Both the position numbers and the translations under genes were made by a program. DNA of 64,000 bases. Origin: Desulfovibrio ferrophilus (lineage in GTDB: Bacteria; Desulfobacterota; Desulfovibrionia; Desulfovibrionales; Desulfovibrionaceae). The stretch spans positions 1,880,905 through 1,944,904 of the forward strand of contig NZ_AP017378.1 in NCBI RefSeq assembly GCF_003966735.1, given 5' to 3'. The notes below the pieces were generated by a model, which saw nothing but the letters and a program-made list of their open reading frames with translations, did not search any database and had not been told where the DNA came from. Below, one piece after another: positions 6,801 to 47,498 of this stretch (positions within the stretch are counted from its first letter, which is position 1; each line of letters starts with the position of its first letter).

Positions 6801-9800
6801 TGGGGCTGAGGTAGCGCTTGCCCGTGGTTTCGAGCACCTGCTTGCGGACCATATTGGTCTCGAAAAAGGCGTCGCCCAGAATCTGGGTATTCAGGTCAGC
6901 GACATTGACGCCGACTTCGTTGAAGAAATAGTCGGAGCCAAAATAGTTCCCCAGGCTGGTCAGGGCGGGGTTGGTCTCGATCAGATAGGTGTGGCCGGGG
7001 TCATTGTTGACCACATACAGCGAGCCTACGCCAGTTGGCAGGGAAACCACCTTGGGGGTAATGGCGGTCCCGGTGGGACGGGTGATGACCGGAGCGCTGA
7101 CTTCCAACCCTGAATATTCGGCGGAGTCGGCAAATTTGCCGTTGTATGCGACGCCCTGCTTGAAACTCTCGTTGGACACATGCCCGGGGACATTGATGGT
7201 CAGTGTGCCAGCGGCGGAAACGATAGATGGAACAGAGTCGAAGGCCTGAGAAATGCTGTAAGTTCTGAAAGTGTGTCCTGGAGGATGACCGTGACCGTGT
7301 TCTGCGTCAGAGTAAACCCACATAAAATTGCGGTAGATGTTGACATGGCGATACAGTTCGGCCCCCTGGTTGACCAGGGAATCGGCATTAATCACCAAAT
7401 CACCGCCTGAAGAAATCAGCCCCTGGATGTTCTGGACGCTATCGGCATCGATTGAAATGTCCAATGCCGACAGAATTTCAGCAGTTCTCGGCGAATCGGC
7501 AATCACTTCTTCTGTAATGTAGATCCATTGCTGTAACCCGTCTGAGGTAAAACCTGTACCAAGACCAATGCCTGCTGGGTCTTGCGTCGGAAGCCCATAT
7601 AAGTTGTTTGTATCATTGAAAAAAGATTTCCAATTTATTGCCCATGACCGAATATCATCAGTGGTTGGTTCATATACATTCCTCTGAGTCGTTCCCGGGA
7701 TAAAGCCAGAAGGATGAGCACTAATTCCGCCTACAGAATAATCAACACTCACAACGCTCGAAGTTGTTGTCGCCGCCCCCGAAACATTCTCCACACTGCC
7801 TGCCGCGATCCGCACCCCACCTGCCAGACTCTCGATCACCGATTGATCGTTGTAGACAAGGTCCGCGCGGGTGCCTGAGGTCAGGCCTTCGATGTCCACG
7901 TCATTCTGAGCGACGATGTAGCCTTGGGCGGTATTGCGAAGTTCCCGAACATTCACATCCAGCAGGTCGCCCGCATAGATCAGACCACCGTTGTTCTGAA
8001 GCGTATCGAGGTTGAATGTCAGGTCGTCGTAGCTGGAGATGGTGCCCCCTGCCCCGTTGACCAACGAATCGGCAGTAATGTCGAGTGAAGCCGTAGAAGT
8101 CAGTATGGCGTTGCCCAAGGTCAAGGCGTCGGTTAACAAGAGGGTGAAGTCCTTGGCCTGCAACAATCCGCCGGACATCGTCAGCGAACGGGTGAGCACG
8201 TCCATGGTGTTCAGGGACGACACATCCGCCGCGCCCGTTACGGTGACATCGCCCGTCCCGGCAGTTGTGCCCTGGAAAGTCAGCGTGTTTACCGCTTCAA
8301 TGGTTGCACCGTTGATGCCGGTATCGGGTGCAGCAAAGGTCATGGTATCGCCGGAAACAAGGCGGGAGTCCGCAACGGCGACTTGTGTTCCAGCGGTAAC
8401 GGACATGGTTCCGCCAGAGATGGAACCATCAGCCTGAAGGCCAGCAGTGACATCGACATCATTGATGGTCACCGTATCGCCTGACAACGTGAGTTGATGC
8501 ACAGCAGCGATACTGGAGTCATCCCCCGGAGCGGCAGGGCCGATATCCAAGGTGTTCGCGGCTGAGAGCAGCGCATCACCGCCGGAATAGACGGTACCCT
8601 CCACGACGGCGTTTCCGGCTTGCGAGCGGAGTGTCAATTCATTGCCCGCCGTTGCCTCGCCCCTCAGGCGAACAAGACTCTGAGCGGTCATCGATAATTC
8701 ATCCGAGGCCTGGACAACGCCCTCGACATCAATCTCCTGCGAAGTCAGGGCCAGATTGCCGCCGGAAACAAAATCAGCGTCGGTGCCCGTGATCCGAGTC
8801 CCCGCAGTGACCTGCATGGCGCCGCCCGACACGCTGCCATTTGCTTGCAGACCAGCCATCACGTCCACATCCTCGACCCGCACGATGTCACCGGACAAGG
8901 TGAGTTGTTGCGCAGCAGCCACAACGGGCGTTTCGCCGGGAACGGCGGTGCTGATGCCCAGCGTGTTCGCTGCTTGAAGCTGCGCATTGCCGCCGGAATA
9001 GACCGTTCCTTCCACGGTCACATCATCGTTCAGGGAGCGAACCCGCATGTCGCTGCCCGCCGTGGTCTTACCCTTCAAGCGGATGAACCCATCGGCGGTC
9101 AGTTCCAATTTGTTTGTGGCCTGGGTAATGCCCTCAAGGTTGACCCCGACTCCGGCCTCGGTGCCCTGGAGTACGATACGGCCCGCGTACATGCCGCCCA
9201 AGGCGCTGGAGTCGATGGCCACGCTGGGGACAACGGATGCGTCAGGAGCCAGAGGCGTGATGGAGCCATCAGCGGGATTATAGGCATTCTGCCCTGCCGC
9301 GATGGTCAGGGTCTGGGCGTGGATGTCCGCATTGATCCGGGTCGCACGGGCCAGCAGCGTGAAGGCGTCCATATTGGCGGCGTTGATGCCCTCGCCTTCC
9401 ACCAGAATGTCTCCCGCGCGGACGTCGATGCCTTCCAGCCCGCCAGCGCCAAAGCGCGATTCACCGGTGGTCAGGGTCACCTTTGGGAAGTTGATGAATC
9501 CACCGCCATTGACCGTGATGCCATTGGGGTTGGCCAGGATGTAGTCGGCCTTACCGCCGTGCAATTCGGTATAACCCTCAAGGTGCGAACGGTTGGCCCC
9601 GGTGATCTCGTTCAGGATCAGCTTGGCCTCCCCTGCCGTCAGGTTGGGGTTGCCCTTGATCATGCCGCCCAGTTGAGACGCGCCCATGGTCTTGCTGTTG
9701 TTGATGATCAGGCCGATCTTGTTGACGTTGAAATCCGAGAACAGGTTGTGCGAGACCCCACCACTGCCGGGTGTGGCGATCTGCTGAATGGGCACACCAT

Positions 9801-9957
9801 TGGTGGCCTGTTCCATGGTCGGTTTCTTGCCTGCGGGGGCAGAGGGATCGACCACCGTAGGCCGATCCTGAGCCATGGCAATGAAACCGGGCTGGAAAAC
9901 AATCAGGCACGACAGAATCACACTGACAAGTTGGCGGGCTATTATATTGGCTTTCAT
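3892..9957 (-). CDS. cdiA: CdiA-like two-partner-secreted toxin with lipase tip
   Basis: The 2,021-residue exoprotein has a signal peptide (about 1-29), a TPS secretion domain (about 50-290, with the NPNGI motif at 144-148), haemagglutinin/beta-helix repeats, a central segment without repeats (about 740-910), more repeats to about 1,530, a hydrophobic DUF637-like pretoxin region (about 1,560-1,790), and a C-terminal domain (about 1,835-2,021). The tip has the lipase box GHSLGGG with nucleophile Ser1926. Asp1979 and His2008 are plausible triad partners, as in class-3 lipases/phospholipases. No VENN motif is seen. cdiB lies 9 bp upstream. The tip is A+T richer than the rest, and a run of nine C residues (coding strand) lies just before it. 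The receiver-killing role is inferred from the family. Confidence 0.8.
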   Translation of the reverse strand: MKANIIARQLVSVILSCLIVFQPGFIAMAQDRPTVVDPSAPAGKKPTMEQATNGVPIQQIATPGSGGVSHNLFSDFNVNKIGLIINNSKTMGASQLGGMIKGNPNLTAGEAKLILNEITGANRSHLEGYTELHGGKADYILANPNGITVNGGGFINFPKVTLTTGESRFGAGGLEGIDVRAGDILVEGEGINAANMDAFTLLARATRINADIHAQTLTIAAGQNAYNPADGSITPLAPDASVVPSVAIDSSALGGMYAGRIVLQGTEAGVGVNLEGITQATNKLELTADGFIRLKGKTTAGSDMRVRSLNDDVTVEGTVYSGGNAQLQAANTLGISTAVPGETPVVAAAQQLTLSGDIVRVEDVDVMAGLQANGSVSGGAMQVTAGTRITGTDADFVSGGNLALTSQEIDVEGVVQASDELSMTAQSLVRLRGEATAGNELTLRSQAGNAVVEGTVYSGGDALLSAANTLDIGPAAPGDDSSIAAVHQLTLSGDTVTINDVDVTAGLQADGSISGGTMSVTAGTQVAVADSRLVSGDTMTFAAPDTGINGATIEAVNTLTFQGTTAGTGDVTVTGAADVSSLNTMDVLTRSLTMSGGLLQAKDFTLLLTDALTLGNAILTSTASLDITADSLVNGAGGTISSYDDLTFNLDTLQNNGGLIYAGDLLDVNVRELRNTAQGYIVAQNDVDIEGLTSGTRADLVYNDQSVIESLAGGVRIAAGSVENVSGAATTTSSVVSVDYSVGGISAHPSGFIPGTTQRNVYEPTTDDIRSWAINWKSFFNDTNNLYGLPTQDPAGIGLGTGFTSDGLQQWIYITEEVIADSPRTAEILSALDISIDADSVQNIQGLISSGGDLVINADSLVNQGAELYRHVNIYRNFMWVYSDAEHGHGHPPGHTFRTYSISQAFDSVPSIVSAAGTLTINVPGHVSNESFKQGVAYNGKFADSAEYSGLEVSAPVITRPTGTAITPKVVSLPTGVGSLYVVNNDPGHTYLIETNPALTSLGNYFGSDYFFNEVGVNVADLNTQILGDAFFETNMVRKQVLETTGKRYLSPTYTSDADQLRQLMDNAAQAHADLGLEIGVALTAEQLAGLTQDIVWYETREVMGQEVLVPVLYLSSVSQENLSLARGAMLIGSDVNIETALLDNSGGIMADGTVTVESDNVLNRQGAIQGETVDITTSGSIINQSGALKGGDVNLTAGGDVIVETRTDTQTANFFRRSSTQTYVHQAAEVTAENSLNIVSGGNTSIQGANVSAGGAANITALGDVNIGSKTVQAKYRDAQWRNVQKTGNIVSSVQAGELNIASGGDVIVAGSSLSADGDAVVDAAGNVVVQGVTNRFQSDYSTSAKEEHIKNDRVVQSSISAGGDVIVNAGENVMMEAVNVNAGGDVALTAQGGDLAILPGQNTSYYHLESKKSGFMGMGSTKLKDLNEVNHVRSEIEAGGKIALEAKKDVVLQAARVTSGGDIVISSQSGQVSLLAVKDSSYKQEITSHSGFFTWSSKGKGSTDETVLHTVISAQGELSITTPEGIVVEYRSSGDARQDVENLSKVQGLEWMANLLERDDVDWQRVQEIHDAWEFSDSGLGTGAMLIVAIAASALTAGAASSLSMSIMGFETVGKALVVSSTGLAASGVQAAMCTALTAAFTSLSAQVAISLADAAAGGNLGKNLGNIVSEEGLRSLMTTMVMAGALDFTHLEFDKLGDAGQVLAETTVKTATRSFIGGEDLEKAFLSSLASTFASYLQGSISPEKLDENVKMIMEGVAGAAGAAIVGGDPVQGAFSAIASNLAGRISLPELTEQQKQEDRAFVTICKEAYNTGNNQSPPPGYEILDDDRLKVICAETGADYETLKGLQVNDSGLHADILINSSDNKVVVAFRGSEMELGDWITNAEQSVGVAGGQYENLERQMDELSNIATYYKSDLVATGHSLGGGLSIAAGSTGYIDKVVAFNPAGVNSNTIIQLGGDIANVNKITTSYTSRSDLLSALNNVMDMVFDLSVGNQVTIDGAGFHGIEGFNSAFGINP
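4490..4498 (-). repeat. G9/C9 homopolymer in cdiA before the toxin domain
   Basis: Nine G residues on the plus strand encode the three prolines in QSPPPGYE (residues about 1,820-1,822). The tract sits between the pretoxin region and the lipase tip. Slippage by one base would keep the secreted stalk but remove the toxin. Confidence 0.85.
8325..9087 (-). repeat. Tandem repeat of about 125 codons inside cdiA
   Basis: Residues about 291-416 and 417-545 are two related units sharing VEGTVYSGG, AANTL, QLTLSGD, DVDV, AGLQA, and SGG with VTAGT, in the same order and spacing. They form part of the filament just after the TPS domain and point to a duplicated beta-helix segment. Confidence 0.75.
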
Positions 9958-9966
9958 CTCATTCCC

Positions 9967-11697
9967 CTAGAACGTCACGGTCACGGCGCTATAGATTTCG
10001 AAATCGTCTTTATCGAGAAAGTCGGGGGCGGCCAGGGCCTTGGCAAAGGTCACGCTGGCGCTCAACTCGCCCAGAGTCCGCAGGCCCAGGGCAACACCCT
10101 GCACACGGCCCCGTTCATACGGGTCATCCTCATCCCCAAGGATCATCCCGTAGTCGTAGCCAGCGAAGAATTCGCAGGCCGAGATCTTGTCAGTTCGGTA
10201 GTTCTGAAACGGCAGTTGCCAGGAGAGCTCGTTGCGGATGTAGCCCCCACTATCTCCGCTCAGGCTGTCGGCTGAGAAGCCACGGACGGTGTAGCGGCTG
10301 CCGATGGACATGCGCTCGGCGCTGTACATGGAATCCGGGCTGTACTGTGCACGGAGGGTCGAGCTCCACATCAGGGATTGACCCGCGATGGGCACCGGAT
10401 GGTAGTAGCTCAGGTTGCCTTCCCACTTGGTGTATTTGGGGGTGGGCACGCCATCGCCCGCAAGAGGCTCCGAAGAACCCAGGAACTCTGCGCCCCAGTG
10501 GTATTCAAGGCCCATACTCAGCGAACCGCCCAACAAGCGACGGGTATGGCTGGCCCTGAGGCCGACGTCGGTGGTCTCATAGCTGCTGGCCACCAGGCGA
10601 ACGCCCTCGATCAGGCTCTCCACCTCGCGGTGCTCCACACCGATGCCCAGAGATGTTTTGCTGTCGGCATCACGGTGGATTACGCGGTCGATGCCCAGCG
10701 ATTGCACCGTGGTGTCACCCTCGTTGGTGAATTCCTGAGTCGTGCCGAAGAGCGTGGTGGTGTAGTTGAATTTGCTGGCAGATAGGCTGACGGTCCAATA
10801 CCCGAGAGGCAGGGACCAATAGGCCGAGAGGCTTTGGCTATCCCTGGCGTGTCCACTCGTTTCCCAAGGCAAAGGCGTGGCGGAATAGCTCAGGGACAGC
10901 ATGTCGCTGACCCCGATGAAGTTGTCTTTCTCGAAGCTCAGAGAGTACTGGTTTCTGCCCGTGGATTTCTGGCCGGAGTCATCCCAGCCCAGCAAGATAC
11001 GCCAGCTTTTGGCGGGCTCGTTGCTGATGGCGACGATGCTCTGCCCCGGCTCACTGCCGGGGACGAGTTTCATGGTGGCGTTGTTGCAGGACAGGCGATT
11101 GAACTGATCCAGCCCCTGCTCCAGGTCACGCAGATTGAGCGGATCGCCGGTGAGCCCCATGAAGGGGCCGAGCAGCTGGTTCTGCTTCTTGCCCGAGCCG
11201 TCGTTCAGCTTGATGCCTTCGATGCGACCTTCTATGACCTTGAGCTCGAGGGTACCGCCGGAGATATCCTGCTCCGGCAGATAGGCACGGGTGGTCACAA
11301 AGCCGCGGTCGACGTATTCGTTGGTGATGGCCTTGAGCAGTTCGTTGGTGTCCGCAAGGGTCAGGCAGCGGCCTGTATAGTTGGAGGTCATGCCCGCAAT
11401 GACGCTATCGGAAATCAGCGTAACGCCTGTGACATTGATGGTCTCGACATCAAAGCAGGTGGCATCGTCCAGCGGCGCAGACGGAGGCTCCTTCTGCAAT
11501 TCAATGCCTGAAGGTGGCTGCCTGGTTTGCTGTTCCAGCTGCTCCTGGCGAGCGCGGCGGCGCTCTTCCTCACGCTGAAGGATGCGTTCCTGAACCCGCC
11601 CTGCGTCCTGAACGGACTGGGCGAAGGCCATCCCCTGAAATGCCAACAGCATGGCAGCAAAGGCCATAGCTGTAGCGCAAGCTTTCCCCAAAGCCAT
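9967..11697 (-). CDS. cdiB: CdiB/ShlB-type outer-membrane two-partner secretion translocator
   Basis: The protein has 576 residues from ATG 11,697, which follows an AAAGGGG ribosome site; an upstream in-frame start would add 22 residues before the signal peptide and is less likely. A signal peptide (1-27) precedes a Gln/Arg-rich linker, a POTRA_2 domain (about 60-140, with the GRIEGI stretch), a second POTRA-like region, and an Omp85-type 16-strand barrel ending in an aromatic residue (VTVTF). It exports the adjacent CdiA-like protein across the outer membrane. Its stop lies 9 bp before the cdiA start, so the two genes are co-transcribed and probably translationally coupled. Confidence 0.88.
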   Translation of the reverse strand: MALGKACATAMAFAAMLLAFQGMAFAQSVQDAGRVQERILQREEERRRARQEQLEQQTRQPPSGIELQKEPPSAPLDDATCFDVETINVTGVTLISDSVIAGMTSNYTGRCLTLADTNELLKAITNEYVDRGFVTTRAYLPEQDISGGTLELKVIEGRIEGIKLNDGSGKKQNQLLGPFMGLTGDPLNLRDLEQGLDQFNRLSCNNATMKLVPGSEPGQSIVAISNEPAKSWRILLGWDDSGQKSTGRNQYSLSFEKDNFIGVSDMLSLSYSATPLPWETSGHARDSQSLSAYWSLPLGYWTVSLSASKFNYTTTLFGTTQEFTNEGDTTVQSLGIDRVIHRDADSKTSLGIGVEHREVESLIEGVRLVASSYETTDVGLRASHTRRLLGGSLSMGLEYHWGAEFLGSSEPLAGDGVPTPKYTKWEGNLSYYHPVPIAGQSLMWSSTLRAQYSPDSMYSAERMSIGSRYTVRGFSADSLSGDSGGYIRNELSWQLPFQNYRTDKISACEFFAGYDYGMILGDEDDPYERGRVQGVALGLRTLGELSASVTFAKALAAPDFLDKDDFEIYSAVTVTF

Positions 11698-35813: not shown

Positions 35814-36332
35814 ATGCCCAAGCGTCAAGCAATACTTCTAGTCCTAATGGGACTGGCTCTGGTTTACGCCGTATTTACTCTCATCGGCGGAGACACGGCC
35901 CAAACCGCACCCCGCACTACCACCAAGGACTTTGCGGAACTCGTGGCAGGCGTGCAAAAAGCCTCCGAAGTAAACGCCCTGACCGAGGTGGAAGAACATC
36001 GCATCGCCTTGCTCGGCGGTGAGCATTCGCCCGATCCGTTGCTCAAGCGCGACCCCACGCAGGCTGAAGCCGAATCTTCCGCCCGCCAGGGAGACTCCCG
36101 CTTCACCTACAGCGGCTACATGAGCATTGGCAGCAATCAGTTCGCCGTCATCAATGCCTCCGAATACACAGAAGGGGAACTCGTGGATGAGACCGGCTAT
36201 ACGCTGTTGTCCATCGCTCCCGACCACGTCACCCTCGAGGGCCGCAACGCCGAGACCGGTGTGGCGGACAAGGTGGCCATCCCCATTCAGGAAGACATCA
36301 TTACCTTTGTCGAGGACAACAATAATGAATAA
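35814..36332 (+). CDS. PilP/MshK-like periplasmic protein
   Basis: The 172-residue protein has an N-terminal membrane anchor (AILLVLMGLALVYAVFTLI), a flexible region, and a beta-rich C-terminal domain (SGYMSIGSNQFAVIN onward). It is thought to bridge the inner-membrane PilN/O pair and the secretin. ATG 35,814 is 9 bp from GAGG; the ATG at 35,805 would touch the site and is less likely. Its end overlaps the secretin gene by 8 bp. Confidence 0.65.
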   Translation: MPKRQAILLVLMGLALVYAVFTLIGGDTAQTAPRTTTKDFAELVAGVQKASEVNALTEVEEHRIALLGGEHSPDPLLKRDPTQAEAESSARQGDSRFTYSGYMSIGSNQFAVINASEYTEGELVDETGYTLLSIAPDHVTLEGRNAETGVADKVAIPIQEDIITFVEDNNNE

Positions 36333-37926
36333 GCGCGTTGCCAACATCTCCCGAATCGTCCTGACCGCCATGCTGTGCCTTTGCCTGTTGGCTATTGCCG
36401 GCTGTAAAAAAGACACGACCGAGCGCGACCCCTTCTACGAAAAATGGAAGGAAATGGCCGAACAGTCCAAAGGCCACAGCCCCTCACCGCCGCAACGGGT
36501 AGCCCCCAGCGATCTCGTAGCCAAGGATATCGAGCTGGAACCTGAGCGCGAGTTGCCCTCGGTGATGATCGGTGGTCTCGACATGCGCAACGCCAACGTC
36601 GTGGCCGTGCTTCGCGCTCTGGGCAAGATTGCCAACCAGAGCATCATGGTCAGCCCCGGTGTGGCCGGCACCATCAACGTCAACGTCGAGAACCTGCCCT
36701 GGGACCAAGTCTTCAAGGGCCTGACTCGCACCCACGGCCTTGCCTGGGAATGGGAAGGGCAGATCCTGCGCGTGATGACTGCCGAGGACATGGAAAAGAA
36801 CCTGAAGCTCGACCAGATCCGCTACCGCAAACCCCTGGTGACCACGGCCATCAAGATCAACTACGCCGACGCCGAACAACTGCGCGAGGATATGGAAAAA
36901 CTGCTGGCCAAGGACGCCGAGGGCAATCCCCGCGGCTCCGTGGAAGTGGTGGAACACACCAACTCGCTGATCATCCATTCCGTCAAGGAAGATGTGGTCC
37001 GGTTCGCGGAGTTGGTGGACAAGCTGGACCGTCCCAGCGCCCAGGTCCACTTCAAGGCCTACATTGTGGAGACCTCCAGCGACACCGCCCGCGACCTCGG
37101 TATTCAGTGGGGTGGTGGGTATGCTTCGAGCAACCAAAGCGGGGCTTGGTCAGCCGGTGGTGGTGCTGACAACCGAGATGTCGACACGGGAATTGCAAAT
37201 CCCACGCTCAATAATACGCGCCCTGGTGCGACCGGCTCCGCATATGCGATGAACTTCCCCGGTAACATCCCCAACGATGACGGAATTGGCGCGCAACTGG
37301 GGCTGGCATACGTCACGGCAAGCGGTAATGTACTGGAAGTACAACTGCGCGCCCTGGAAGAGGACAGCAAGCTGAACATCCTGTCCAACCCATCCCTGAC
37401 CACTTTGGACAACCAGACCGCCTACACCGAAAACGGTGAAGAAGTACCCTTCGTGACCATCGACGAAGCCGGCAACTACGAGGTGGAGTGGAAGGACGCC
37501 ACCCTGCGTCTGGAAATCACCCCGCATGTCATCGACGGCGTGAACCTGCGCATGGACATCAACGTCAAGAAGGACGAGGTGGACTTCACCCGTACCGTGC
37601 AGGGCAACCCGCTGATCATCAAGAAAGCCACGGAGACCAGCCTCATCAGTCGCTCGGGTGAAACGGTTGTCATTTCGGGCCTGAAGCGAACCCGGAACAC
37701 CTCAGGGGGCGCAGGACTGCCCTACCTGAAAGACGTCCCCGGGCTGGGACATCTGTTCGGTAGCACAAGCAAGGGCGAAGAGCTGGAAGAGGTACTGATC
37801 TTCATCACCCCCACCATCCTGGCCGAATGGATTCCCGGCGAGGTTCAGAAGACCCTGGAAGAAGTCGAAACCGACATCAACGACGACATCGCCAAGGAAC
37901 TGGAAGAAAAGGACAGCGACAACTAG
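36325..37926 (+). CDS. mshL: MshL-type pilus secretin lipoprotein
   Basis: The 533-residue protein has a lipoprotein signal with lipobox LAIAGC (Cys27), an STN/N-domain region (about 75-150; NVNVENLPWDQVFKGLTRTHGLAWEWEG), a secretin N-domain (about 170-235), a Gly/Asn/Ser-rich loop (about 260-315), and the secretin C-domain ending in GLPYLKDVPGLGHLFGS and VLIFITPTIL. It forms the outer-membrane pore for the pilus. It differs from PilQ in being short and lacking AMIN domains, as MshL/BfpB-type secretins do. Confidence 0.87.
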   Translation: MNKRVANISRIVLTAMLCLCLLAIAGCKKDTTERDPFYEKWKEMAEQSKGHSPSPPQRVAPSDLVAKDIELEPERELPSVMIGGLDMRNANVVAVLRALGKIANQSIMVSPGVAGTINVNVENLPWDQVFKGLTRTHGLAWEWEGQILRVMTAEDMEKNLKLDQIRYRKPLVTTAIKINYADAEQLREDMEKLLAKDAEGNPRGSVEVVEHTNSLIIHSVKEDVVRFAELVDKLDRPSAQVHFKAYIVETSSDTARDLGIQWGGGYASSNQSGAWSAGGGADNRDVDTGIANPTLNNTRPGATGSAYAMNFPGNIPNDDGIGAQLGLAYVTASGNVLEVQLRALEEDSKLNILSNPSLTTLDNQTAYTENGEEVPFVTIDEAGNYEVEWKDATLRLEITPHVIDGVNLRMDINVKKDEVDFTRTVQGNPLIIKKATETSLISRSGETVVISGLKRTRNTSGGAGLPYLKDVPGLGHLFGSTSKGEELEEVLIFITPTILAEWIPGEVQKTLEEVETDINDDIAKELEEKDSDN

Positions 37927-37937
37927 CCGCGCACACC

Positions 37938-39530
37938 ATGAACTACTTCGAAATTCTTGACCTCAGGATGGAGCCGTTCTCCAACTCACCCGACCCGGAC
38001 TTTCTGTACCGGTCGCAGGGACACGAGCGCTGTCTGCACGAACTGGAGATTGCGCTCCGGCTGCGGCGTGGTCTGTCCGTGGTGCTGGGCGAAGTGGGGA
38101 CCGGCAAGACCACCCTGTGCCGAGAGTTGATCCGCACTCTGGACGAAGACGAATCCGTCACCGCCCGTCTGTTGCTGGACCCAGGGTTCTCCTCTGCGCA
38201 TGAATTGCTGGTGGTGCTGCACGAAATCTTCTGCGGCTCGGAGACCGAAGGACTCAGTGACTGGCAGCTCAAAGAGGCCGTTAAGGAAACCATCCTGACA
38301 GCAGGACTGGATCAGGAAAAAATCATGGTGCTGGTGGTGGATGAAGGGCAGAAAATGCCTCCCCACTGTCTGGAAGTCCTGCGTGAACTGCTCAACTACG
38401 AGACCAACGACCGCAAGCTGTTGCAGATCGTGATCTTTGCCCAGAGCGAATTCAGCGAGATGCTCACCGCCATGCCCAACCTCGCGGACCGGGTCAACGA
38501 CCTGATCCGACTGGAACCGTTATCCCTGTCCGAAACCAAAGCCATGGTCCGCCACCGCCTGGACACAGCCAAGGCCGACTACCGCGCGCCCGAAATTTTT
38601 ACATCCCTGGGCTATCTGGCCCTGCACCGAACCACTGGTGGCTACCCGAGACGCATCGTGCGCCTCTGCCACAAGGTGGTGCTGGGTCTGATCATGAAGG
38701 AAAAGCGCAAGGCCGGTTGGAAACTGGTCCGGGCCTGTGCCCGCAGAAACGAACTGGCTCCCAAAACCACACGACGCTGGCTGGCCCTGCCTGTAGCGGC
38801 AGCAATGGCCCTTGCCCTGTGGTTCGGTCTTCAGACATATGCCCCAGTGCTGCACGCACGGATTCAGCAGGTAATTATCCCCGCCTTACAACAGGTCAAT
38901 CCAGCAGCCCTGGCAGTAGCCCGGACACCAATTCCGGAGCCTGTACTCCCGAAACATGCCGAAAAACCTGCTGTAGCCCAACAACCCAAACGTTTCGTGA
39001 CTGTTCAACCCGTTGCCGAGGTAGTGCCGCCGCAAAGTATTAGCGAAGCGACGCCACCTTCACCCGAAAACATCGTCGAACAACCGTTCATACAGATGCT
39101 GCTAGGCCAGGTGACCGCAGTCCGTTATGAGAGTCTTTCCTCATTGATCAAGGCCATCTATGGCCGGTTCGATCCAAGCCTGCTGGAAACGGTACTCAAG
39201 GCCAACCCGGGTATGACCGACCCGAACCTGCTCCAGGTCGGGCAGCGAGTAAATTTCCCCACGATGGAAGTTGGTACAGCCCCTGCTTACTGGGTCCAAC
39301 TGGACGACAAACCGGAATTGAGCGAGGCCATCAAAATCTGGCGCACCCTGCCCGAAGAGACAAAGCCCCGGATACTGCCCCATCTGGACGCCGCAGGCTC
39401 GCGCCGTTTTGCCATAATCTCTGATGAGCCCTGTCTTTCGGAACACGAGGCACGCCGGATTCTGGCGCAAAACCTGCTGCCTGGAGCCACACTGGCAAGC
39501 GGCAACGCACTGGTCCGATTACAATGGTAA
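37938..39530 (+). CDS. mshM: MshM/ExeA-like AAA ATPase with C-terminal LysM-like domain
   Basis: The 530-residue protein starts MNYFEILDLRMEPFSNSPDP, the typical ExeA/MshM start. It has Walker A GEVGTGKTT (about 51-59), Walker B VLVVDEGQ (about 135), a membrane helix (about 278-296), a Pro-rich linker, and a LysM-like region (about 395-440: YESLSSLIKAIYGRFDPSLL to GQRVNFP). Family members (GspA) help a secretin pass the peptidoglycan. The fused peptidoglycan-binding part would do this in one chain. Confidence 0.82.
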   Translation: MNYFEILDLRMEPFSNSPDPDFLYRSQGHERCLHELEIALRLRRGLSVVLGEVGTGKTTLCRELIRTLDEDESVTARLLLDPGFSSAHELLVVLHEIFCGSETEGLSDWQLKEAVKETILTAGLDQEKIMVLVVDEGQKMPPHCLEVLRELLNYETNDRKLLQIVIFAQSEFSEMLTAMPNLADRVNDLIRLEPLSLSETKAMVRHRLDTAKADYRAPEIFTSLGYLALHRTTGGYPRRIVRLCHKVVLGLIMKEKRKAGWKLVRACARRNELAPKTTRRWLALPVAAAMALALWFGLQTYAPVLHARIQQVIIPALQQVNPAALAVARTPIPEPVLPKHAEKPAVAQQPKRFVTVQPVAEVVPPQSISEATPPSPENIVEQPFIQMLLGQVTAVRYESLSSLIKAIYGRFDPSLLETVLKANPGMTDPNLLQVGQRVNFPTMEVGTAPAYWVQLDDKPELSEAIKIWRTLPEETKPRILPHLDAAGSRRFAIISDEPCLSEHEARRILAQNLLPGATLASGNALVRLQW

Positions 39531-39582: not shown

Positions 39583-41289
39583 ATGAGAATCACCAATAGA
39601 AAACGACTGGGCGAAATGCTCGTGGAAGCGGGCATCATGACCGAGGAGCAACTGATGGGGCATCTGCCCGGTCAGAAGCAGAGCGGCATGAAGCTTGGCG
39701 AATATCTGGTGCATAACGCCGTGGTCAAGGAACACACCATCCTGGACCTGATCAGCGGCCAGATGAACATCCTGCGCTACAACTCGGACACTCATCCCTT
39801 TGATATCGCGGTGGCGGAGCTTGTTCCGCTGGAACTGGTGCAGGAACATCTGGTTGTCCCGGTCAGCCGCAAGGGCCGCCTGCTGTATGTAGCCACGGCA
39901 GACCCCATGGACATTGACGCCCTGGACGCTGTGGAAATTCACACAGGGCTGGAAGTGGAACCACTGATCTGCTCGGAGAAGGAATTCGAAAGCCTCTGCT
40001 ATTCCGTTTACGGCATCTCCTCGGACCTGGATCAGGTCATGGAGGGCGTGGACGACGGGGGCGTGGAAACCGAAGACGCAATGTCCGCTACAGAATCCGA
40101 GTTCACGGTGTCCTCGCTTCAGGAAATGGCGGACGAGGCCCCGGTGGTGCGCATGGTCAACTCCATTCTCTCCCAAGCCGTGCGCGACGGAGCCAGTGAT
40201 GTGCACATCAGCCCAGAAAAGGACTACGTCCAGCTGCGCTTCCGCGTGGATGGCAAATTGCGCGAGGTCCCGGCTCCGCCCAAGAAATATTTTCTGCCCA
40301 TTGTCTCGCGCCTGAAAATCCTGGGCAACATGGACATCGCCACCGCCATGATCCCACAGGACGGACGCTTCTCGTTCAACTACGAAAAGCGCGAAGTGCA
40401 TGTACGTGCCTCGACCCTGCCCACCATCTATGGCGAAAACATGATCCTGCGACTGCTGCTCAGAAACGGGTCCGGGCTGACCCTGGATGATCTGGGCATG
40501 ATCGAGGAAGATCGCGACAAACTGAAGATCGCAGTGCAGCGGCCATACGGCATGATCCTTTCCACCGGCCCCACGGGCAGCGGCAAGAGCACCAGCCTGT
40601 ATGCGGTGCTCAGGCGCATCAACCAGCCGGACATCAATATCATTACCTTGGAAGACCCGGTGGAATACCGAGTGCCCAAGATCAGGCAGGTGCAACTCAA
40701 CAAGAAAGCGGGCATGACCTTTGCCAGCGGTCTGCGTTCCATCCTGCGCCAGGACCCGGATGTGATCATGGTCGGTGAAATCCGTGATGCAGAGACCGCG
40801 GGCATCGCCGTGCAGGCCGCGCTCACAGGCCACCGCCTGTTATCCACCATCCACACCAACGACGCAGCCGGGGCCGTCACCCGTCTGACAGAGATGGGTG
40901 TCGAGCCCTTCCTGGTGGCCTCCACCCTCTTGGTTTCTGTTGCTCAGCGGTTGATCCGCAAGGTCTGCCCCCACTGCAAGGAAGCCTACGAACCTCCCAC
41001 CGCCGCTCTGGAAGCCATGGGCATTTCCCCCAACGGCCATACCTTCTACCGCGGTCGAGGCTGCGCCCAGTGCAACCAGATTGGTTATCTGGGCCGAGTG
41101 GGCCTGTTCGAGATTCTGCCCATTGATGACATGGTCCAGTCCATGATCATGCAGCGGGCCTCGGCACGGGAAATCACCCGAGCGGCCGTGAAAGCTGGCA
41201 TTCTGCGTACGCTGAAGGAAGACGGGGCGTCCAAGGTCATCGCCGGAATCACCACCCTTGAAGAAGCCGCTTCAGCGGTGTTGATCTAG
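39583..41289 (+). CDS. mshE: MshE/PilB-type pilus extension ATPase
   Basis: The 568-residue protein has an N-terminal MshEN domain (about 1-150), an N2 domain, a RecA-like core with Walker A GPTGSGKST (about 328-336), the Asp box, Walker B region DPDVIMVGEIRDAETA (about 390-405), and a zinc tetracysteine (CPHC about 461 and CAQC about 494). The MshEN part of related proteins binds cyclic-di-GMP. The frame continues upstream, but ATG 39,583 has the AAAGGAAA site and starts right at the domain. It powers pilin polymerisation. Confidence 0.9.
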   Translation: MRITNRKRLGEMLVEAGIMTEEQLMGHLPGQKQSGMKLGEYLVHNAVVKEHTILDLISGQMNILRYNSDTHPFDIAVAELVPLELVQEHLVVPVSRKGRLLYVATADPMDIDALDAVEIHTGLEVEPLICSEKEFESLCYSVYGISSDLDQVMEGVDDGGVETEDAMSATESEFTVSSLQEMADEAPVVRMVNSILSQAVRDGASDVHISPEKDYVQLRFRVDGKLREVPAPPKKYFLPIVSRLKILGNMDIATAMIPQDGRFSFNYEKREVHVRASTLPTIYGENMILRLLLRNGSGLTLDDLGMIEEDRDKLKIAVQRPYGMILSTGPTGSGKSTSLYAVLRRINQPDINIITLEDPVEYRVPKIRQVQLNKKAGMTFASGLRSILRQDPDVIMVGEIRDAETAGIAVQAALTGHRLLSTIHTNDAAGAVTRLTEMGVEPFLVASTLLVSVAQRLIRKVCPHCKEAYEPPTAALEAMGISPNGHTFYRGRGCAQCNQIGYLGRVGLFEILPIDDMVQSMIMQRASAREITRAAVKAGILRTLKEDGASKVIAGITTLEEAASAVLI

Positions 41290-41302: not shown

Positions 41303-42532
41303 ATGAATTACAAGTACAAGGCCATCACCGACAGCGGTTCGCCCGTGACAGGCACCATTGCCGCAGAAAACGAAGCCCAGGCCATGCAACTCATTGCCGC
41401 CAAGGGCTACATCCCGCAGAACGTCAAGGCGGGCGGCAAGAGTGACGCTGGCGATGAGCCAGAATGGCTTGAGGCCATCAACCGCAAGCTGGCCAAGGTA
41501 AAAGCCCCGGAGCTGATGCTGTTCACCAAGCAACTACGAACCATGCTGGATGCGGGCCTGCCCGTAACACGGGCTCTGGATGTCATGGAACAGCAGAGCG
41601 AAAATAAAAAGCTCAAGCATGCCGTGATCAAGATGTCCCAAAACATTCGCCTGGGCTCAACCATGCACCAGGCCTTTGCCCAGCACCCGGAATGCTTTTC
41701 TGAACTCTATATCAACATGATCCAGGCCGGAGAGGTCAGCGGCAACCTGTCCGACGTCATGGAACGGTTGGCCTACCTCATCGACCACGAGCACAAGGTC
41801 AAGAGCAAGATCAAGTCGGCGATGACCTATCCCATCATCGTCGTCATCGCCTTGCTCGGCGCCTTCACTTTCCTGTTGGGTTTCGTCATCCCTCAGTTTG
41901 TGACTCTCTTTGCTGGTGCGGGCATTGAATTGCCTTGGCCTACAAAATTATGCATCACCATGAGCGAAATGCTCTTTGCTTATTGGCATGTCGGCGTCCT
42001 TGGCATCATCGCATTTATTGCTGGCCTGGCCATTTATTGCAAAACTCCGACGGGACGCTTTCAACGCGACACACTTTTCTTACGAATCCCGATCATCGGC
42101 CCAGTATTACGGAAAGCAGCCATGGCCCGTTTTTCCAGTATCTTTGCCATCCTCCAGTCCAGCGGTGTCAGTGTTTTGAATTCCGTGAGCATCATCTCGC
42201 GCACCATCGGCAACGCCGCCATCTCTCGCGAATTCGACAATCTGGAGTCCAAGCTCATGGAAGGCCGCGGAATCTCAGGGCCCCTGCAATCAAGCAAACA
42301 TTTCACGCCCATGGTCATCAACATGATCGCCATCGGCGAGGAATCCGGGAATCTAGACGGCATGCTTCAGGAAGTGGCCACCCACTATGACTACGAAGTT
42401 GAATATTCCGTAGGTAGAATGTCCGAGATGATTGGTCCTATCCTGGTATTGAGTCTGTCTGGCGTGGTGGGGTTCTTTGCCCTGGCCATCATGCTGCCCA
42501 TATTCGAACTCACAAAGATGACAGGATTATAA
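41303..42532 (+). CDS. mshG: MshG/PilC-type inner-membrane platform protein
   Basis: The 409-residue protein has the two GspF domains (about 70-195 and 275-395) and three long membrane segments (about 170-195, 220-240, 375-400). The first begins FTKQLRTMLDAGLPVTRALDVMEQQ, and the second has a matching SSIFAILQSSGVSVLNSVS. It is the rotor or platform for the ATPase MshE, 13 bp upstream. One segment near 41,910-42,100 is A+T richer, but the frame is intact. Confidence 0.9.
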   Translation: MNYKYKAITDSGSPVTGTIAAENEAQAMQLIAAKGYIPQNVKAGGKSDAGDEPEWLEAINRKLAKVKAPELMLFTKQLRTMLDAGLPVTRALDVMEQQSENKKLKHAVIKMSQNIRLGSTMHQAFAQHPECFSELYINMIQAGEVSGNLSDVMERLAYLIDHEHKVKSKIKSAMTYPIIVVIALLGAFTFLLGFVIPQFVTLFAGAGIELPWPTKLCITMSEMLFAYWHVGVLGIIAFIAGLAIYCKTPTGRFQRDTLFLRIPIIGPVLRKAAMARFSSIFAILQSSGVSVLNSVSIISRTIGNAAISREFDNLESKLMEGRGISGPLQSSKHFTPMVINMIAIGEESGNLDGMLQEVATHYDYEVEYSVGRMSEMIGPILVLSLSGVVGFFALAIMLPIFELTKMTGL

Positions 42533-42628
42533 TGCAATCGCCCCCTTGCTGCCCAAATAACAAGAGGGTCAAAATATATGGAAAAACAAACAAATGACCG
42601 TTCCGACGGTCCCAACAAGGAGCAACTC

Positions 42629-43003
42629 ATGACTCAGAACAACAAGAGGAAAAAAAGCGGTTTCACCCTGATCGAACTGATCGCCGTACTGGTAATCCTC
42701 GGTATCCTGGCTGGATTCGCCATCCCAAAATACGCTGATCTGCGGACGGACGCTGAAGCTGCCTCCATGGACGGTGTTGGTGCAGCGGCTCTGTCCCAGT
42801 GCAGCATCGAATACGGTTCCCTGGCCATGGCCGGAACCACTCCGACCTGCGCTCTCATTGCCACTGCAGCTGCCGCAGACATGCAGTATGACACCGTCAA
42901 GTACTCCGTCGCTTGGGCAAGCACTGACACCACTGTCACTGCAACCGTCACCTATACGGGCGGCACGGCTACACCCAAGGTTTACACGTGGACCATGCCC
43001 TAA
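42629..43003 (+). CDS. MshA-like major type IV pilin
   Basis: The 124-residue prepilin has a short basic leader (about 11 residues), the peptidase site SG/FTLIELIAVLVILGILAGF with Glu+5, and a small C-terminal domain with two cysteines (QCSIE and TPTCAL) that can form the disulfide loop typical of MSHA pilins. AAGGAG lies well before ATG 42,629; a longer frame is less likely. A strong stem-loop follows, which often keeps pilin message stable. It is probably the main shaft subunit. Confidence 0.85.
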   Translation: MTQNNKRKKSGFTLIELIAVLVILGILAGFAIPKYADLRTDAEAASMDGVGAAALSQCSIEYGSLAMAGTTPTCALIATAAAADMQYDTVKYSVAWASTDTTVTATVTYTGGTATPKVYTWTMP

Positions 43004-43063: not shown

Positions 43064-43537
43064 ATGCGTAAAGCTCATTGCCAATCGGGATTCACACTGC
43101 TTGAAGTTGTCGCCACGCTGGTGATCTTCGGCATGTTGATGACCGGGGCTATGCTGGCCTTGAACGACGACAACGACATCCGCAAGGAAGCCGACCTGTT
43201 GCGCATCCGCTTACGCTATGCCCAATCCCGGGCCATGGGGGAAAACATCCCCTACGGTATCATCTCGACAGGTAGCCAGTACCATCTCTTCAGGGGGGCT
43301 GGAGCAGCACAGACGCCCGTTTTTCCGGGAGTTTCAACCATCAATTACGCACCCCCATCAGATATCAATGTTCCCGCCTTCACCATCTCCTTCGACCAAT
43401 GGGGGGTGCCCTACAGAGACAGCTCCCAGAATACAGCAATAAACGCAGCTTTGACCCTGGCTCTCACGACGACCTCTGGAGGGGCAACCATTACCGAATC
43501 AATCACTGTCATCCCCACCACCGGATTTGTACCATGA
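43064..43537 (+). CDS. Minor pseudopilin, MshC/GspH-like
   Basis: The 157-residue prepilin has the site SG/FTLLEVVATLVIFGMLMTG and then the stretch RKEADLLRIRLRYAQSRAMGENIPYGI, characteristic of GspH/FimT-type minor pilins. It likely takes part in the tip complex. Its stop overlaps the next gene as ATGA. Confidence 0.78.
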   Translation: MRKAHCQSGFTLLEVVATLVIFGMLMTGAMLALNDDNDIRKEADLLRIRLRYAQSRAMGENIPYGIISTGSQYHLFRGAGAAQTPVFPGVSTINYAPPSDINVPAFTISFDQWGVPYRDSSQNTAINAALTLALTTTSGGATITESITVIPTTGFVP

Positions 43538-43935
43538 GCCAACTCCAACACACGAAGTGCAAAGGCTTTACCCTCATTGAGCTCATTGCCGTGCTTGTCA
43601 TACTGGGGATTATTGCAGGATTTGCCATCCCGCGCTTTGCTACCCTCCGCGACAATGCCGAATCAGCATCACTTGAAGGCGTGATGGCCGCTGCAGTTTC
43701 GCAATGCAGCATCGAACATGCAAGGCTTGTCCTTGACCCGACTTTAGCTGGCGGTGGTGCAACAGTAAGCAATATTGCGACCAATGCCGCAAACAACGTC
43801 AGCTACGATTCCGTAAAATTTCAAGCTCCCGACTTCGCTGCCAATGCGGGGGCAGACACCATCACTATTACGGTAAACTATAATTCGGGACAGGGGAGCG
43901 CAACAATCGCTCCTGTCATTTGGGAACAACCCTAG
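43534..43935 (+). CDS. Second MshA-like pilin
   Basis: The 133-residue prepilin is a close relative of the gene at 42,629: leader ending KG/FTLIELIAVLVILGIIAGF, the same AIPRFATLRDNAESASLEGV helix, and a QCSIE cysteine box. The second cysteine of the first pilin is missing, so the disulfide would be lost. It may be MshB-like or an alternative shaft subunit. ATG 43,534 overlaps the previous stop. Confidence 0.8.
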   Translation: MSQLQHTKCKGFTLIELIAVLVILGIIAGFAIPRFATLRDNAESASLEGVMAAAVSQCSIEHARLVLDPTLAGGGATVSNIATNAANNVSYDSVKFQAPDFAANAGADTITITVNYNSGQGSATIAPVIWEQP

Positions 43936-43992: not shown

Positions 43993-44382
43993 ATGACCAA
44001 AACACGCCCTCTGAGACAGCGCACAGGATTCACCCTGCTCGAAGTTGTCCTTGCTTTGGTTATTGGTCTCTCCATGTGCCTGTTGCTCATTCAGGTGGGA
44101 AACATCCTAAAGATGGGGCCACAGACCGTGAGCATGGTCGATGTGCAATACGATACCATGCGCGAGGTCGAACAACTGGTCAGTGAATACCGCGAAGAGC
44201 TTAGCGAAGATTCCCTGAACCTGAACAGCCTGCTCTCCAACTGGGCCTCGGACAACGACGTGACCATCACGACCCAGACCATCTCCGTTGGTGCAACGGA
44301 CGGATCATACACCTTCAGCAACGTCCGCCAGGTGCAGATGTCCAAAAACGGACAAAGCATCACGGCCTATTTCACCGAGTAG
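43993..44382 (+). CDS. Minor pilin, MshD-like
   Basis: The 129-residue prepilin has the site TG/FTLLEVVLALVIGLSMCLLL and a short helical-plus-beta C-terminal part, without cysteines after the helix. GGAGAA lies before its ATG. The MshD call rests on the place in the operon. Confidence 0.68.
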   Translation: MTKTRPLRQRTGFTLLEVVLALVIGLSMCLLLIQVGNILKMGPQTVSMVDVQYDTMREVEQLVSEYREELSEDSLNLNSLLSNWASDNDVTITTQTISVGATDGSYTFSNVRQVQMSKNGQSITAYFTE

Positions 44383-44395
44383 TCGGAGTCATGGC

Positions 44396-44935
44396 ATGAA
44401 AAAGCAACGCAAACCTGGCTTCACATTGATCGAGTTGATCTCTGCGTTGGTTCTGACCACCATCGTCGCCACGGCCTTTTTCTACGCCTTGGTCTACGGC
44501 GTTCAGCAGTACGTGCAGAGTTACCAGACGGCGTCTCTTGCGCAAAAGGCGCGTCTGGCTCTGACTCGCATGCACGTGGAACTCACCGAAATCCAAGACA
44601 TCGATCAGGCTCATAGCGGCAATATCGATGGCACCCATTTTTTCTACATCGACCACAATGGCCAAGCTGGTTCCCTTGAGATTTCAGGATCGACCATCGC
44701 CATGAACGGCCAGTTCACACTGGTCGATGATCTGGCCTCATTCGCCTCGGGCGAAACCCTGTTTACCTACAGTGACGGTAACGGCAATACATGGACCCCG
44801 GCAGACGGGTTCGACGATCTCTACGAAGTCACCATCACCCTGAGAATGGAGTCACTGGATTCAAACTCCCTTGCCTTCACCCACACGGTGAACCCTCGCA
44901 ACTCCTCCAACCTCAACGCACCCAAGTTGCAATAA
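44396..44935 (+). CDS. Minor pilin, MshO/PilW/GspJ-like
   Basis: The 179-residue prepilin has the site PG/FTLIELISALVLTTIVATA followed by YQTASLAQKARLALTRMHVELTEI, the GspJ/PilW-type helix. The start at 44,396 has GGAG a few bases upstream. It lies 13 bp after the MshD-like gene. Confidence 0.72.
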   Translation: MKKQRKPGFTLIELISALVLTTIVATAFFYALVYGVQQYVQSYQTASLAQKARLALTRMHVELTEIQDIDQAHSGNIDGTHFFYIDHNGQAGSLEISGSTIAMNGQFTLVDDLASFASGETLFTYSDGNGNTWTPADGFDDLYEVTITLRMESLDSNSLAFTHTVNPRNSSNLNAPKLQ

Positions 44936-44948
44936 CCGGAGTCGCGCA

Positions 44949-47189
44949 ATGATGAACCTTACCAGCATCAACACAAGACCCCGTGGCGCCGTCCTGCTCA
45001 TGGTTGTCTTCACGCTCCTGGCTCTGGGTGCCGTGACCGCCACCATGTCCGGCTTCATCTCCACCACTCATGTGGAGCAGGCCCACTCTGCAACGGCCCG
45101 TCAGGCTTTCTATGCCGCCGAGGCTGGCATCCGCATCGTTGCGGCGGAATACAACAAATCCGCAGTAACCGATGACAAGAGCGACATGCTTGAGGACGTT
45201 TCGGGCAAGACCTTCAACCTGACTGGCGATGGGAGCCAACAATTCGACCTCAATGTCTTTTCCTACGGCTTCCAGGTCGCGTCACACGATGCAAGCACCA
45301 ACACCATCGTCGCCAAGGCTATCGGCAACATCCCCTTGCAGGATATGGAAGACCTCAGCTCCTCCACCATCGATTTCCCTGCTGGGAGCATGATCAGTGT
45401 GCAGGACGAAGTCGGCAACGACATCCCCGTGACTCTGGCAAGTGCCGGGTCCATCAGCACCGGAGCAGGTGGCACTCAGTATGTGACCTTCACCTACACC
45501 CCGCCCACGGGCACGATCCCCATTGATGCCAGTGCGGACCTGGACTTCGTAGGCATCGCCAACCAGACCAGCAACGGGGTTTCCGGCAATGCAGATGCTG
45601 TCAGTGGCCTGCCATCCTCCATGGACAACTTTCCTGCCCACAACGGGCGCATTGCCATCTATGGCGAGGACAAGACATACACCTACCGTACCCTGACCGT
45701 GGAAGCCAACGGCTCGGTCACATTAAGCGGCCTTGAGCCGGAGTCCGGCACGTTCTCGCTGGCGGATTTTCAAAGCGAAACCCTGATCCTGCGCAAGACT
45801 TATGGCTTCCAATCCATTGGTCGCGTGACCACGGGCGGAACTACGGCCACCAAGGTGCTGGCGTACTACGACTCTCCCGTCGAGAATGCTGCGGAGCTCG
45901 ACCCTGATGCCGACGCCGCAGGGCCGACCATCCTGATGTATGATGTCAGTGACTTCAATGCCAACGATCTCACGGATTCCGACGGCGACAACGTTGTTGC
46001 CATCAAAGCCTATACGGCATCGCAGGGAAACCACACCTATTACGCCGCCATCCATAGCCTGTGCGAGAATCCCTGGGTCAACACCCCCTGTGAGCATACA
46101 CTGCGCCTGGGACGCGAAACCGATTTCAGTGATCGTTGGAAGGTGGACACCCGCCTGTCCTATGATGTGCAGGTCAAGCTCTCCACGGCTTGGAAGCTGC
46201 CCTTTGGCATGAATGGTGTGCTGGTGCGTTACCATCGGTCTGGAAGCAACACTAATTTCTACGGTTTCTCGTTCATGAAATACATCGACCCCACCGAAAC
46301 CACTCTGCCCAGTGGCGTGGTAGGCGATCATATTCCCAATGAACTGAAGCCCCCGGGACAAGGTTCCACGATCTCCAGATGGCAGCAGGCTCCAGAATAT
46401 GAAGGCGGTAGCCGCCCTCTGAATATCACCGAGAACGACAACATCCTGTTGGTCTTCTGGCGCCAGGCCGGTTCACGGCGCGAGTGGTTGGCTTACAAGG
46501 AGGTCACAGACGACCTGGCCGCCTATCCCAAGCAATGGAGTGGTGACGGCCGTATTATCAGTGATAACACAACCCTGCTCGTGCGCGTGGAAGAGCAATT
46601 CGTGCAGGGCAAGAAGGTCAACCGGATCAAGGTCTTCTATGGCGACGCTTCGTATCAAATACCGAGCATTGTGGCCCGTACTCCAGACACTCTGCCCTAC
46701 GACATTATTGCAGGAAACGGCGAACGCGGCCGCAGCCGCTACCAGACCGAATGGGACAGCAGCAGAACACACGCCTTCCCCAGTTGGCCACCCTACACCA
46801 TTGGTGACTGGGCCATTACTGATGACTTCTTCACTCATATCCAGTCCGCCCCTACGTATAGAGTGGACGGAACCCTGCGCCCCTGCACATGGGACGCGGT
46901 CAACAGTACTGCCATCAACAGTACTGCTCTCGCGGCGGCAGACATCCGTATCCTGTCTGATGGGGCCACCATCCGCACTCAGGAATTCCTCACGCCCAAT
47001 TCGGCATCGTGGCCAGCCAGTATCACGAATTGGCCGGGCAACAGACCGGAAATTGCCTTTCACGCCGCAGGACGCATGATCACTTACAGCTATGAACGCA
47101 GAGGGTGGCGATGGCGTGCATACTCGGACCCATACAACTATGGGGCAACACTGGATGACCTGACCTACCGCTTCCTGTTTTACAATTAG
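44949..47189 (+). CDS. PilX/MshP-like protein with large C-terminal adhesin-like region
   Basis: The 746-residue protein has a basic start and one helix (GAVLLMVVFTLLALGAVTATMSG), then HVEQAHSATARQAFYAAEAGIR, the PilX_N pattern with AAEAG. Usual PilX/MshP proteins have 150-200 residues; the remaining approximately 650 here are beta-rich, with acidic turns, a lectin-like middle (about 375-560, WKVDTRLSYDVQVKLSTAW) and several cysteines (SLCENPWVNTPCEH). It could replace the separate MshP and MshQ with one tip adhesin. I cannot assign a ligand. Confidence 0.72.
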   Translation: MMNLTSINTRPRGAVLLMVVFTLLALGAVTATMSGFISTTHVEQAHSATARQAFYAAEAGIRIVAAEYNKSAVTDDKSDMLEDVSGKTFNLTGDGSQQFDLNVFSYGFQVASHDASTNTIVAKAIGNIPLQDMEDLSSSTIDFPAGSMISVQDEVGNDIPVTLASAGSISTGAGGTQYVTFTYTPPTGTIPIDASADLDFVGIANQTSNGVSGNADAVSGLPSSMDNFPAHNGRIAIYGEDKTYTYRTLTVEANGSVTLSGLEPESGTFSLADFQSETLILRKTYGFQSIGRVTTGGTTATKVLAYYDSPVENAAELDPDADAAGPTILMYDVSDFNANDLTDSDGDNVVAIKAYTASQGNHTYYAAIHSLCENPWVNTPCEHTLRLGRETDFSDRWKVDTRLSYDVQVKLSTAWKLPFGMNGVLVRYHRSGSNTNFYGFSFMKYIDPTETTLPSGVVGDHIPNELKPPGQGSTISRWQQAPEYEGGSRPLNITENDNILLVFWRQAGSRREWLAYKEVTDDLAAYPKQWSGDGRIISDNTTLLVRVEEQFVQGKKVNRIKVFYGDASYQIPSIVARTPDTLPYDIIAGNGERGRSRYQTEWDSSRTHAFPSWPPYTIGDWAITDDFFTHIQSAPTYRVDGTLRPCTWDAVNSTAINSTALAAADIRILSDGATIRTQEFLTPNSASWPASITNWPGNRPEIAFHAAGRMITYSYERRGWRWRAYSDPYNYGATLDDLTYRFLFYN

Positions 47190-47222
47190 ATCGAGTACGG
47201 CCCAAATCACTTGGAGACCACT

Positions 47223-47498
47223 ATGAAAACCATCACCGCCCTGACACTTGCTATTCTGTTACTGGCCGCAGCCCCGGCCTTTGCGCTGGTGTCCATGGAC
47301 ACCCCCGCCTCCGCTCCCGCCAATGCCCCGGAGCAATCCGTAGAGACCTCCCCGCCGTCTTCAGATGAAGCAGCGCCTTCTGCTCAGGGCTCTCAAGGCC
47401 AAACCGCCCCGGGCAAACAGTCCAGCGGAACCATCATCTACAAGCCAGCGACCAAGGGCCAACCCGGCACCATCAGGAGCGCACCCGTCAGTCAATAA
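47223..47498 (+). CDS. Small exported Pro/Ser-rich protein
   Basis: The 91-residue product has a signal peptide (MKTITALTLAILLLAAAPAFA) and a low-complexity mature part rich in Pro, Ser, Ala, Gln and Gly with no cysteine. It follows the pilus operon by 33 bp on the same strand with GGAG upstream, so it may be its last gene. Function is unknown. Confidence 0.65.
   Translation: MKTITALTLAILLLAAAPAFALVSMDTPASAPANAPEQSVETSPPSSDEAAPSAQGSQGQTAPGKQSSGTIIYKPATKGQPGTIRSAPVSQ

Follow-up and report, generated by a model that had tools for sequence, protein, structure and literature searches.

A K-slot minor pilin with a large C-terminal module, putatively concanavalin-A-like, ends the pilin run of a type IV pilus operon in Desulfovibrio ferrophilus

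Introduction

Two papers describe PilC of Streptococcus sanguinis as a pilin with a concanavalin-A (ConA)-like lectin module that is located at the pilus tip and binds glycans (PMC8179133, PMC9934059). The first of these counts over 1,200 modular pilins in 264 architectures, with PF13385 as one of the common modules (PMC8179133). H-I-J-K tip complexes are capped by the K subunit, which lacks Glu-5 and has a bulky head (PMC9934059). In the MSHA system, mshO-mshP-mshQ stand at the end of the structural operon (PMC4624765).

Here we describe the pilin that closes the pilin run of such an operon, one for a type IV pilus in D. ferrophilus, encoded in a window of 64,000 nucleotides (assembly GCF_003966735.1, contig NZ_AP017378.1, positions 1,880,905 to 1,944,904 of the forward strand). 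We refer to the protein as K. Like S. sanguinis PilC, with its ConA-like lectin, and PilB, with its vWA module, K has a pilin stem plus a large grafted module and stands among minor pilins. The ConA-like fold, solved in S. sanguinis PilC, is suspected in K. In contrast to the S. sanguinis proteins, K belongs to a pilus of the diderm type; its stem is PilX/K-type and lacks Glu-5, its pilin head holds inserts, and its module family has no Pfam entry. K has several traits in common with GspK and PilX, namely the missing Glu-5, a place after J, bulk and an inserted head domain (for GspK, see PMC8179133). However, the GspK insert is an alpha domain, whereas K has an insert of a different kind and, after the head, a module of 420 residues; unlike GspK and PilX, K also falls short of the PilX_N and T2SSK thresholds. 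The locus resembles that of MSHA in its gene order and in having a K-type pilin, there MshP, at the end of the pilin run, but it lacks DUF6701, an MshL-type secretin and a separate mshQ gene. Finally, the PilY1/PilC tip adhesins hold a large binding part at the pilus tip, as we propose for K, although PilY1 is not a pilin. PF05567, searched for in this genome, gave no match, but neither did the control, so that a PilY1-type protein may still be present.

Results

The K gene is an uninterrupted open reading frame of 746 codons, present as a single copy in the 3.72-Mb genome. A search of genome contigs with the whole protein returned one match, in the sister MAG "Proteobacteria bacterium isolate MM_PC_MetaG.mb.39", whose copy is 85% identical and aligns over residues 7/8-746. 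Because this full-length copy is so similar and the dN/dS of the whole gene is 0.098, we take K to be a real gene rather than a chance frame. The surrounding operon starts at 33168 and encodes PilM-like, PilN/O-like and PilP-like proteins, a secretin, an ExeA-like ATPase, PilB, PilC, five GFTL-type pilins and, as the last pilin, K, which begins 13 bases after the end of J (Table 1). The PilM, PilN/O, PilP and PilB labels come from reading of the open reading frames, conservation with relatives and gene order rather than from a family scan of each gene. The secretin scores above the cut-off of PilQ and below those of MshL (80.4 against 250.2) and GspD (201.9 against 351.35). Elsewhere in the genome, Peptidase_A24 (prepilin peptidase) matches at two places, and two PilT-family motors score above the cut-off. 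A scan for promoters and terminators gave no more sites than shuffled sequence did.

Table 1. Parts of the pilus operon and of the K protein, with window positions.
Feature	Coordinates	Strand	Remarks
Secretin	36325..37926	+	PilQ 293.2 against cut-off 284.35
ExeA-like AAA ATPase with LysM-like C-terminal part	37938..39530	+	
PilB/GspE-type extension ATPase	39583..41289	+	ORF reading; pilT-family profile cross-match of 158 bits, below cut-off
PilC/GspF-type platform protein	41303..42532	+	GspF profile match
GFTLIE pilin, candidate major pilin	42578..43003	+	
H (GspH-like) minor pilin	43064..43537	+	TIGR01708 E 9.5e-11, below cut-off
Second GFTLIE pilin	43534..43935	+	
I-like minor pilin	43993..44382	+	By size and order; Glu-5 present
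J (PilW/GspJ-like) minor pilin	44396..44935	+	Adjoins K upstream; end without CFI box
K-slot (PilX/GspK-type) modular minor pilin	44949..47189	+	746 aa plus stop
Prepilin leader, residues 1-13, ends in Gly-13	44949..44987	+	Predicted cleavage before Ala-14
N-terminal helix, residues 14-70, AAEAG box at 56-60	44988..45158	+	
Pilin head, first strands, residues 71-137	45159..45359	+	From alignments; head assignment presumed
Inserted modules in pilin head, residues about 138-284	45360..45800	+	From alignment of K middles
Presumed last head strands and linker, residues 285-324	45801..45920	+	Aligned with "STGxxG...R.v.Y" of relatives
C-terminal module, residues 325-746	45921..47186	+	Family without Pfam entry
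Putative ConA-like core, residues about 393-566	46125..46646	+	

Two further features of the operon are recorded here. The C-terminal part of the ExeA-like ATPase matches Phage_tail_X (PF05489, E 1.4e-6) and perhaps binds peptidoglycan. Directly 3' of K, at 47211-47498, lies a gene for a small protein that is rich in Pro and Ser and whose start resembles a signal peptide; among nine loci compared, only the sister genome has a counterpart.

The N-terminus of K carries the marks of a class III signal, a short hydrophilic leader to Gly-13 followed by a hydrophobic stretch (residues 11-38), which is the only one in the whole protein. In 16 aligned K stems, G13 is invariant, as are A57, E58, G60 and R62, which lie in or next to the AAEAG box. 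K reads G13-AVLLM and thus has no Glu-5, whereas all five upstream pilins carry this residue (FTL[LI]E). The only named family matched is Pfam PilX_N, over residues 15-62 with 18.9 bits (E 0.0015), short of the gathering score of 25.5; Pfam T2SSK gave no match in the protein. An earlier note, made from the sequence alone, had described the helix and AAEAG box as being of PilX/MshP type, and both are present as it stated, with PilX_N below threshold. Its view of K as a PilX/MshP-type minor pilin with an extra module is borne out by the sequence marks, the gene order and the relatives.

The same note had placed an extension of about 550 residues after this N-terminus. The extra sequence is there, but not as one block: about 150 residues are inserted at about 138-284, and about 420 more follow at 325-746 (the C-module). 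From the alignment, the pilin head seems to be interrupted, with a strand pair up to about residue 137, the inserts, and a "STGxxG...R.v.Y" stretch at about 285-310 that would supply the last head strands. In the alignment of 16 K middles, the first inserted head module is missing from three relatives (L048, L049 and L051). Among the full-length homologues, L019 has an additional insert of about 280 residues ahead of the same C-module. The inserted modules match nothing in Pfam or PHROGs. A suspected likeness of these modules to the repeats of phage tail fibres found no support, as nothing is shared in PHROGs. Viral contigs searched with two alignments yielded nine candidate stretches each and no relative. 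In many relatives (L049-L054, L154-L165 and others) the C-terminus is a short, conserved (G)F(L/I)PPIQ-type tail, which K lacks.

We surveyed related genomes at several depths. The K protein is matched at E 0.001 or better in 10 of 59 related genomes, its own included, and seven full-length homologues could first be aligned with it, the sister at 85% identity and the others at 25-29%. In six of these seven, the K gene directly follows or overlaps a J-like gene. The exception is L022, where the stem that bears the C-module is a pilin stem containing Glu-5. A C-module profile matched 18 of 395 genomes of the phylum and a wider one 25 of 348 genomes of the class, the genome studied here counted in each. 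The family mostly stands after J or fused to J, and has so far been seen only on pilin stems. Two tandem arrangements were also noted. L022 (4859-10142, minus strand) encodes three large N_methyl-type proteins of 609, 582 and 515 aa in a row, the middle one bearing the C-module, and in genome G448 (C1:3271143-3275431) three neighbouring frames, about 495-583 aa long, each encode a K-type stem, one of them together with the C-module.

The stem alone is found more widely, as a K-stem profile matched 103 of 345 class genomes. Among the 48 matches listed (E 1.7e-19 or better), 47 lie in open frames of at least 494 aa, and the remaining one lies in a frame of 217 aa that starts near a contig end; this tally is biased, since bulky K proteins were the source of the profile. 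It shows that K subunits of the bulky sort are common in this class, and says nothing on the rarity of small ones.

The K slot of relatives holds other modules. K-stem proteins directly after a J-like gene bear PF13385 at L025 (6.2e-29) and at L088 (1.1e-28), in the latter with a weak L-type lectin match ahead of it. At L092, the K-stem protein again carries PF13385 (9.3e-19), with an H-like gene nearby and J not found there, while the K-stem protein of L024 has a bactofilin domain (5.5e-12) and faces J. Because the relatives' K slot holds LamG-type lectins instead, we read K as a modular pilin of the tip whose module is new, and the apparent exchange matches the modular pilin concept. Elsewhere in the phylum, PF06439-type domains sit on GFSLLE or GFTLIE pilin stems (L120, L130 and L135), which makes these proteins modular pilins too.

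Direct searches linked the C-module to no described family. It had no match in NCBIfam or PHROGs, and a Pfam scan of 21 members gave nothing above threshold, only three single-member matches (E 0.03-0.24) to unrelated families. Against PDB sequences, phmmer with the protein returned two chance matches (E 1.1-1.2) and the C-module profile none. Seven residues, Y405, Q408, K410, G423, R427, G439 and W504, are invariant in the 21 aligned members. AlphaFold2, run on two-row alignments with L016 as the second row, gave unusable models (pLDDT 33.4 for 325-746 and 35.2 for 1-330).

Profile comparison was more informative. We aligned a 37-row C-module alignment, trimmed to 349 columns, against a PF06439 set with hhalign; the set held 21 rows of hit length at least 360 bases, shorter rows having been dropped, with seven below the curated cut-off and one (L129) possibly in the wrong frame. 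The two matched over 100 columns with a score of 30.1 (P 0.0014, probability 17.8%), in a single register (YDVQVK...GxxFR...W.AY...L.VR...I.VFYGD). None of 100 column shuffles reached this score (best 16.1), and the reversed C-module alignment scored 18.8 (P 0.068). Eleven unrelated families from the operon gave P of at least 0.018 against the PF06439 set and at least 0.021 against the C-module. Half-splits kept the match, six of the C-module family giving P 0.00016-0.0078 and six of the PF06439 set 0.00033-0.018. As a positive control, PF13385 matched PF06439 with P 3.5e-5 and a probability of 72%. The C-module itself did not match PF13385 (Laminin_G_3; 17 rows; P 0.34, and 0.34-0.89 across comparisons), so Laminin_G_3 was set aside as its nearest fold relative. 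Of the description in the earlier note, beta-rich and lectin-like, the lectin-like part gains weak but reproducible support from profile comparison, for the core at about 393-566. We conclude that this core is probably ConA-like and of the PF06439 kind. PF06439 includes many domains of unknown function.

We compared selective constraint across the operon, using the own and sister genomes as a single pair in which dS is about 0.6-2.2, near saturation for several genes, so that the ranking is indicative. Within K, dN/dS is 0.058 for the C-module, 0.132 for residues 61-325 and 0.248 for residues 1-60, and the C-module value is the lowest of any pilus part measured in this pair. PilB follows at 0.103, with PilC at 0.156, PilQ at 0.165, J at 0.167, I at 0.249 and the first pilin at 0.398; for H and the second pilin, silent sites have reached saturation (pN/pS 0.49 and 0.64). 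Constraint on the C-module thus exceeds that on PilB, beside fast-changing pilins, which is not what an adhesin would lead one to expect.

In some relatives, J and K form one protein. Five frames (L050, L053, L054, L055 and L057, in genomes G088, G074, G328, G243 and G094, respectively) encode a J pilin, a segment, a complete K stem with its Gly, the head and the C-module. Four of the five carry CFI_box_CTERM (NF041770) on the segment, with scores of 66-83 bits (cut-off 40), and L055 has a degenerate form. Each fusion has hydrophobic regions in the J helix, the linker and the K helix. A search with a junction profile showed J and K sharing a frame in 8 of 395 phylum genomes, with seven single matches and, in G243, two pieces of one frame; the genomes besides those five are G187, G368 and G404. 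At class loci inspected, the CFI motif lies in the K frame in eight of ten, and not in L156 and L163, both of which have frames truncated at the 5' end. In D. ferrophilus, J and K have separate frames and J lacks the CFI box. A possible intermediate was seen at L052 (G386; 7768-11045, minus strand), where J ends in a CFI-box segment and a separate K with the C-module comes right after. The arrangement of the fusions suggests a two-pilin polyprotein in which the span in the linker leads the chain back into the cytoplasm, allowing insertion and cleavage of the K stem. Within the set of papers covered, literature searches found none on CFI-box-CTERM, and none on fused or single-polypeptide minor pilins, GspK included.

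Discussion

We propose, with a probability of roughly 0.6, that K is the K subunit of an H-I-J-K complex, an enlarged modular pilin whose module stands at the tip and most likely grips a ligand. Prepilin peptidase would cut after Gly-13, and the K helix would then pack with those of J, I and H. Because K lacks Glu-5 and carries bulky domains, it should fit only on top, and would thus prime and then cap the filament. The C-module, probably a ConA-like sandwich, would be held out at the tip and would most likely grip a conserved surface or matrix ligand, probably a glycan. PilT motors encoded elsewhere in the genome would pull on the filament. The strong conservation between the sister genomes is unusual for an adhesin that faces a varying target, and counts against the gripping role.

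This conservation speaks for a different function, in which the C-module is a structural cap that serves to stabilise or prime the complex at the tip, or as a docking site for a further tip protein, with no external ligand of its own. The module has a lower dN/dS than any machine part measured, and K subunits prime assembly in known systems (PMC9934059). However, the same K stem in relatives bears LamG-type, lectin-type or bactofilin domains instead, and the C-module occurs in only 25 of the 348 class genomes. Since other domains take the place of the module in relatives, it is suggestive of an interchangeable effector rather than a fixed structural part. We therefore regard the cap as a lesser possibility, to which we would give about one chance in five.

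It is rather improbable that the module is instead an enzyme acting on polysaccharide at the tip, in the manner of the 3-keto-disaccharide hydrolases. The sole remote match is to PF06439, which is named 3keto-disac_hyd, and the invariant residues include the polar Q408, K410 and R427, but the match is weak and confined to the core, and no catalytic motif can be assigned. More doubtful still is that the whole machine is a type II-like secretion pseudopilus with K as its GspK. The two share the HIJK logic, and the platform protein matches the GspF profile; against this, the secretin passes PilQ and misses GspD, PilM-, PilN/O- and PilP-like genes are present, and T2SSK is not matched. Finally, the suggestion in the earlier note that MshP and MshQ are combined here is scarcely credible as a true fusion, for although the genes are ordered much as in the MSHA locus and K is not followed by an mshQ-like gene, DUF6701 (MshQ) has no match in the K protein or its genome, the C-module showed no homology to it by profile comparison (3 rows; P 0.64, and 0.62-0.69 across comparisons), and the secretin lies far below the MshL cut-off. 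K may nevertheless do alone what a separate tip protein does elsewhere.

The J-K fusions offer indirect support for a tip position of K and for its contact with I and J. In the fused proteins, the CFI-box-CTERM and the membrane span would return the chain, and prepilin peptidase would cut the second pilin stem; the CFI box would presumably be processed, freeing J. As J and K would come from a single polyprotein, a 1:1 J-K tip pair would be fixed by translation. The design of a modular K-type tip pilin is known, and the module family and its fused relatives are undescribed as far as these searches go. More tentatively, and at clearly less than even odds, the C-module may represent a new ConA-like family of tip effectors on pilin stems, mostly K, joined in some lineages by a J-K polyprotein.

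It is at the tip that the target of a type IV pilus is decided, yet beyond a small number of model pathogens little is known of tip proteins. The operon described here points to a K-subunit slot in which binding modules have apparently been exchanged, among them the new module, LamG, L-type-lectin-like and bactofilin domains. The C-module is a conserved, expressible domain of 420 residues that is open to structure determination and assay, and the J-CFI-K fusions would allow fixed-proportion tip assembly and the role of CFI-box-CTERM to be tested.
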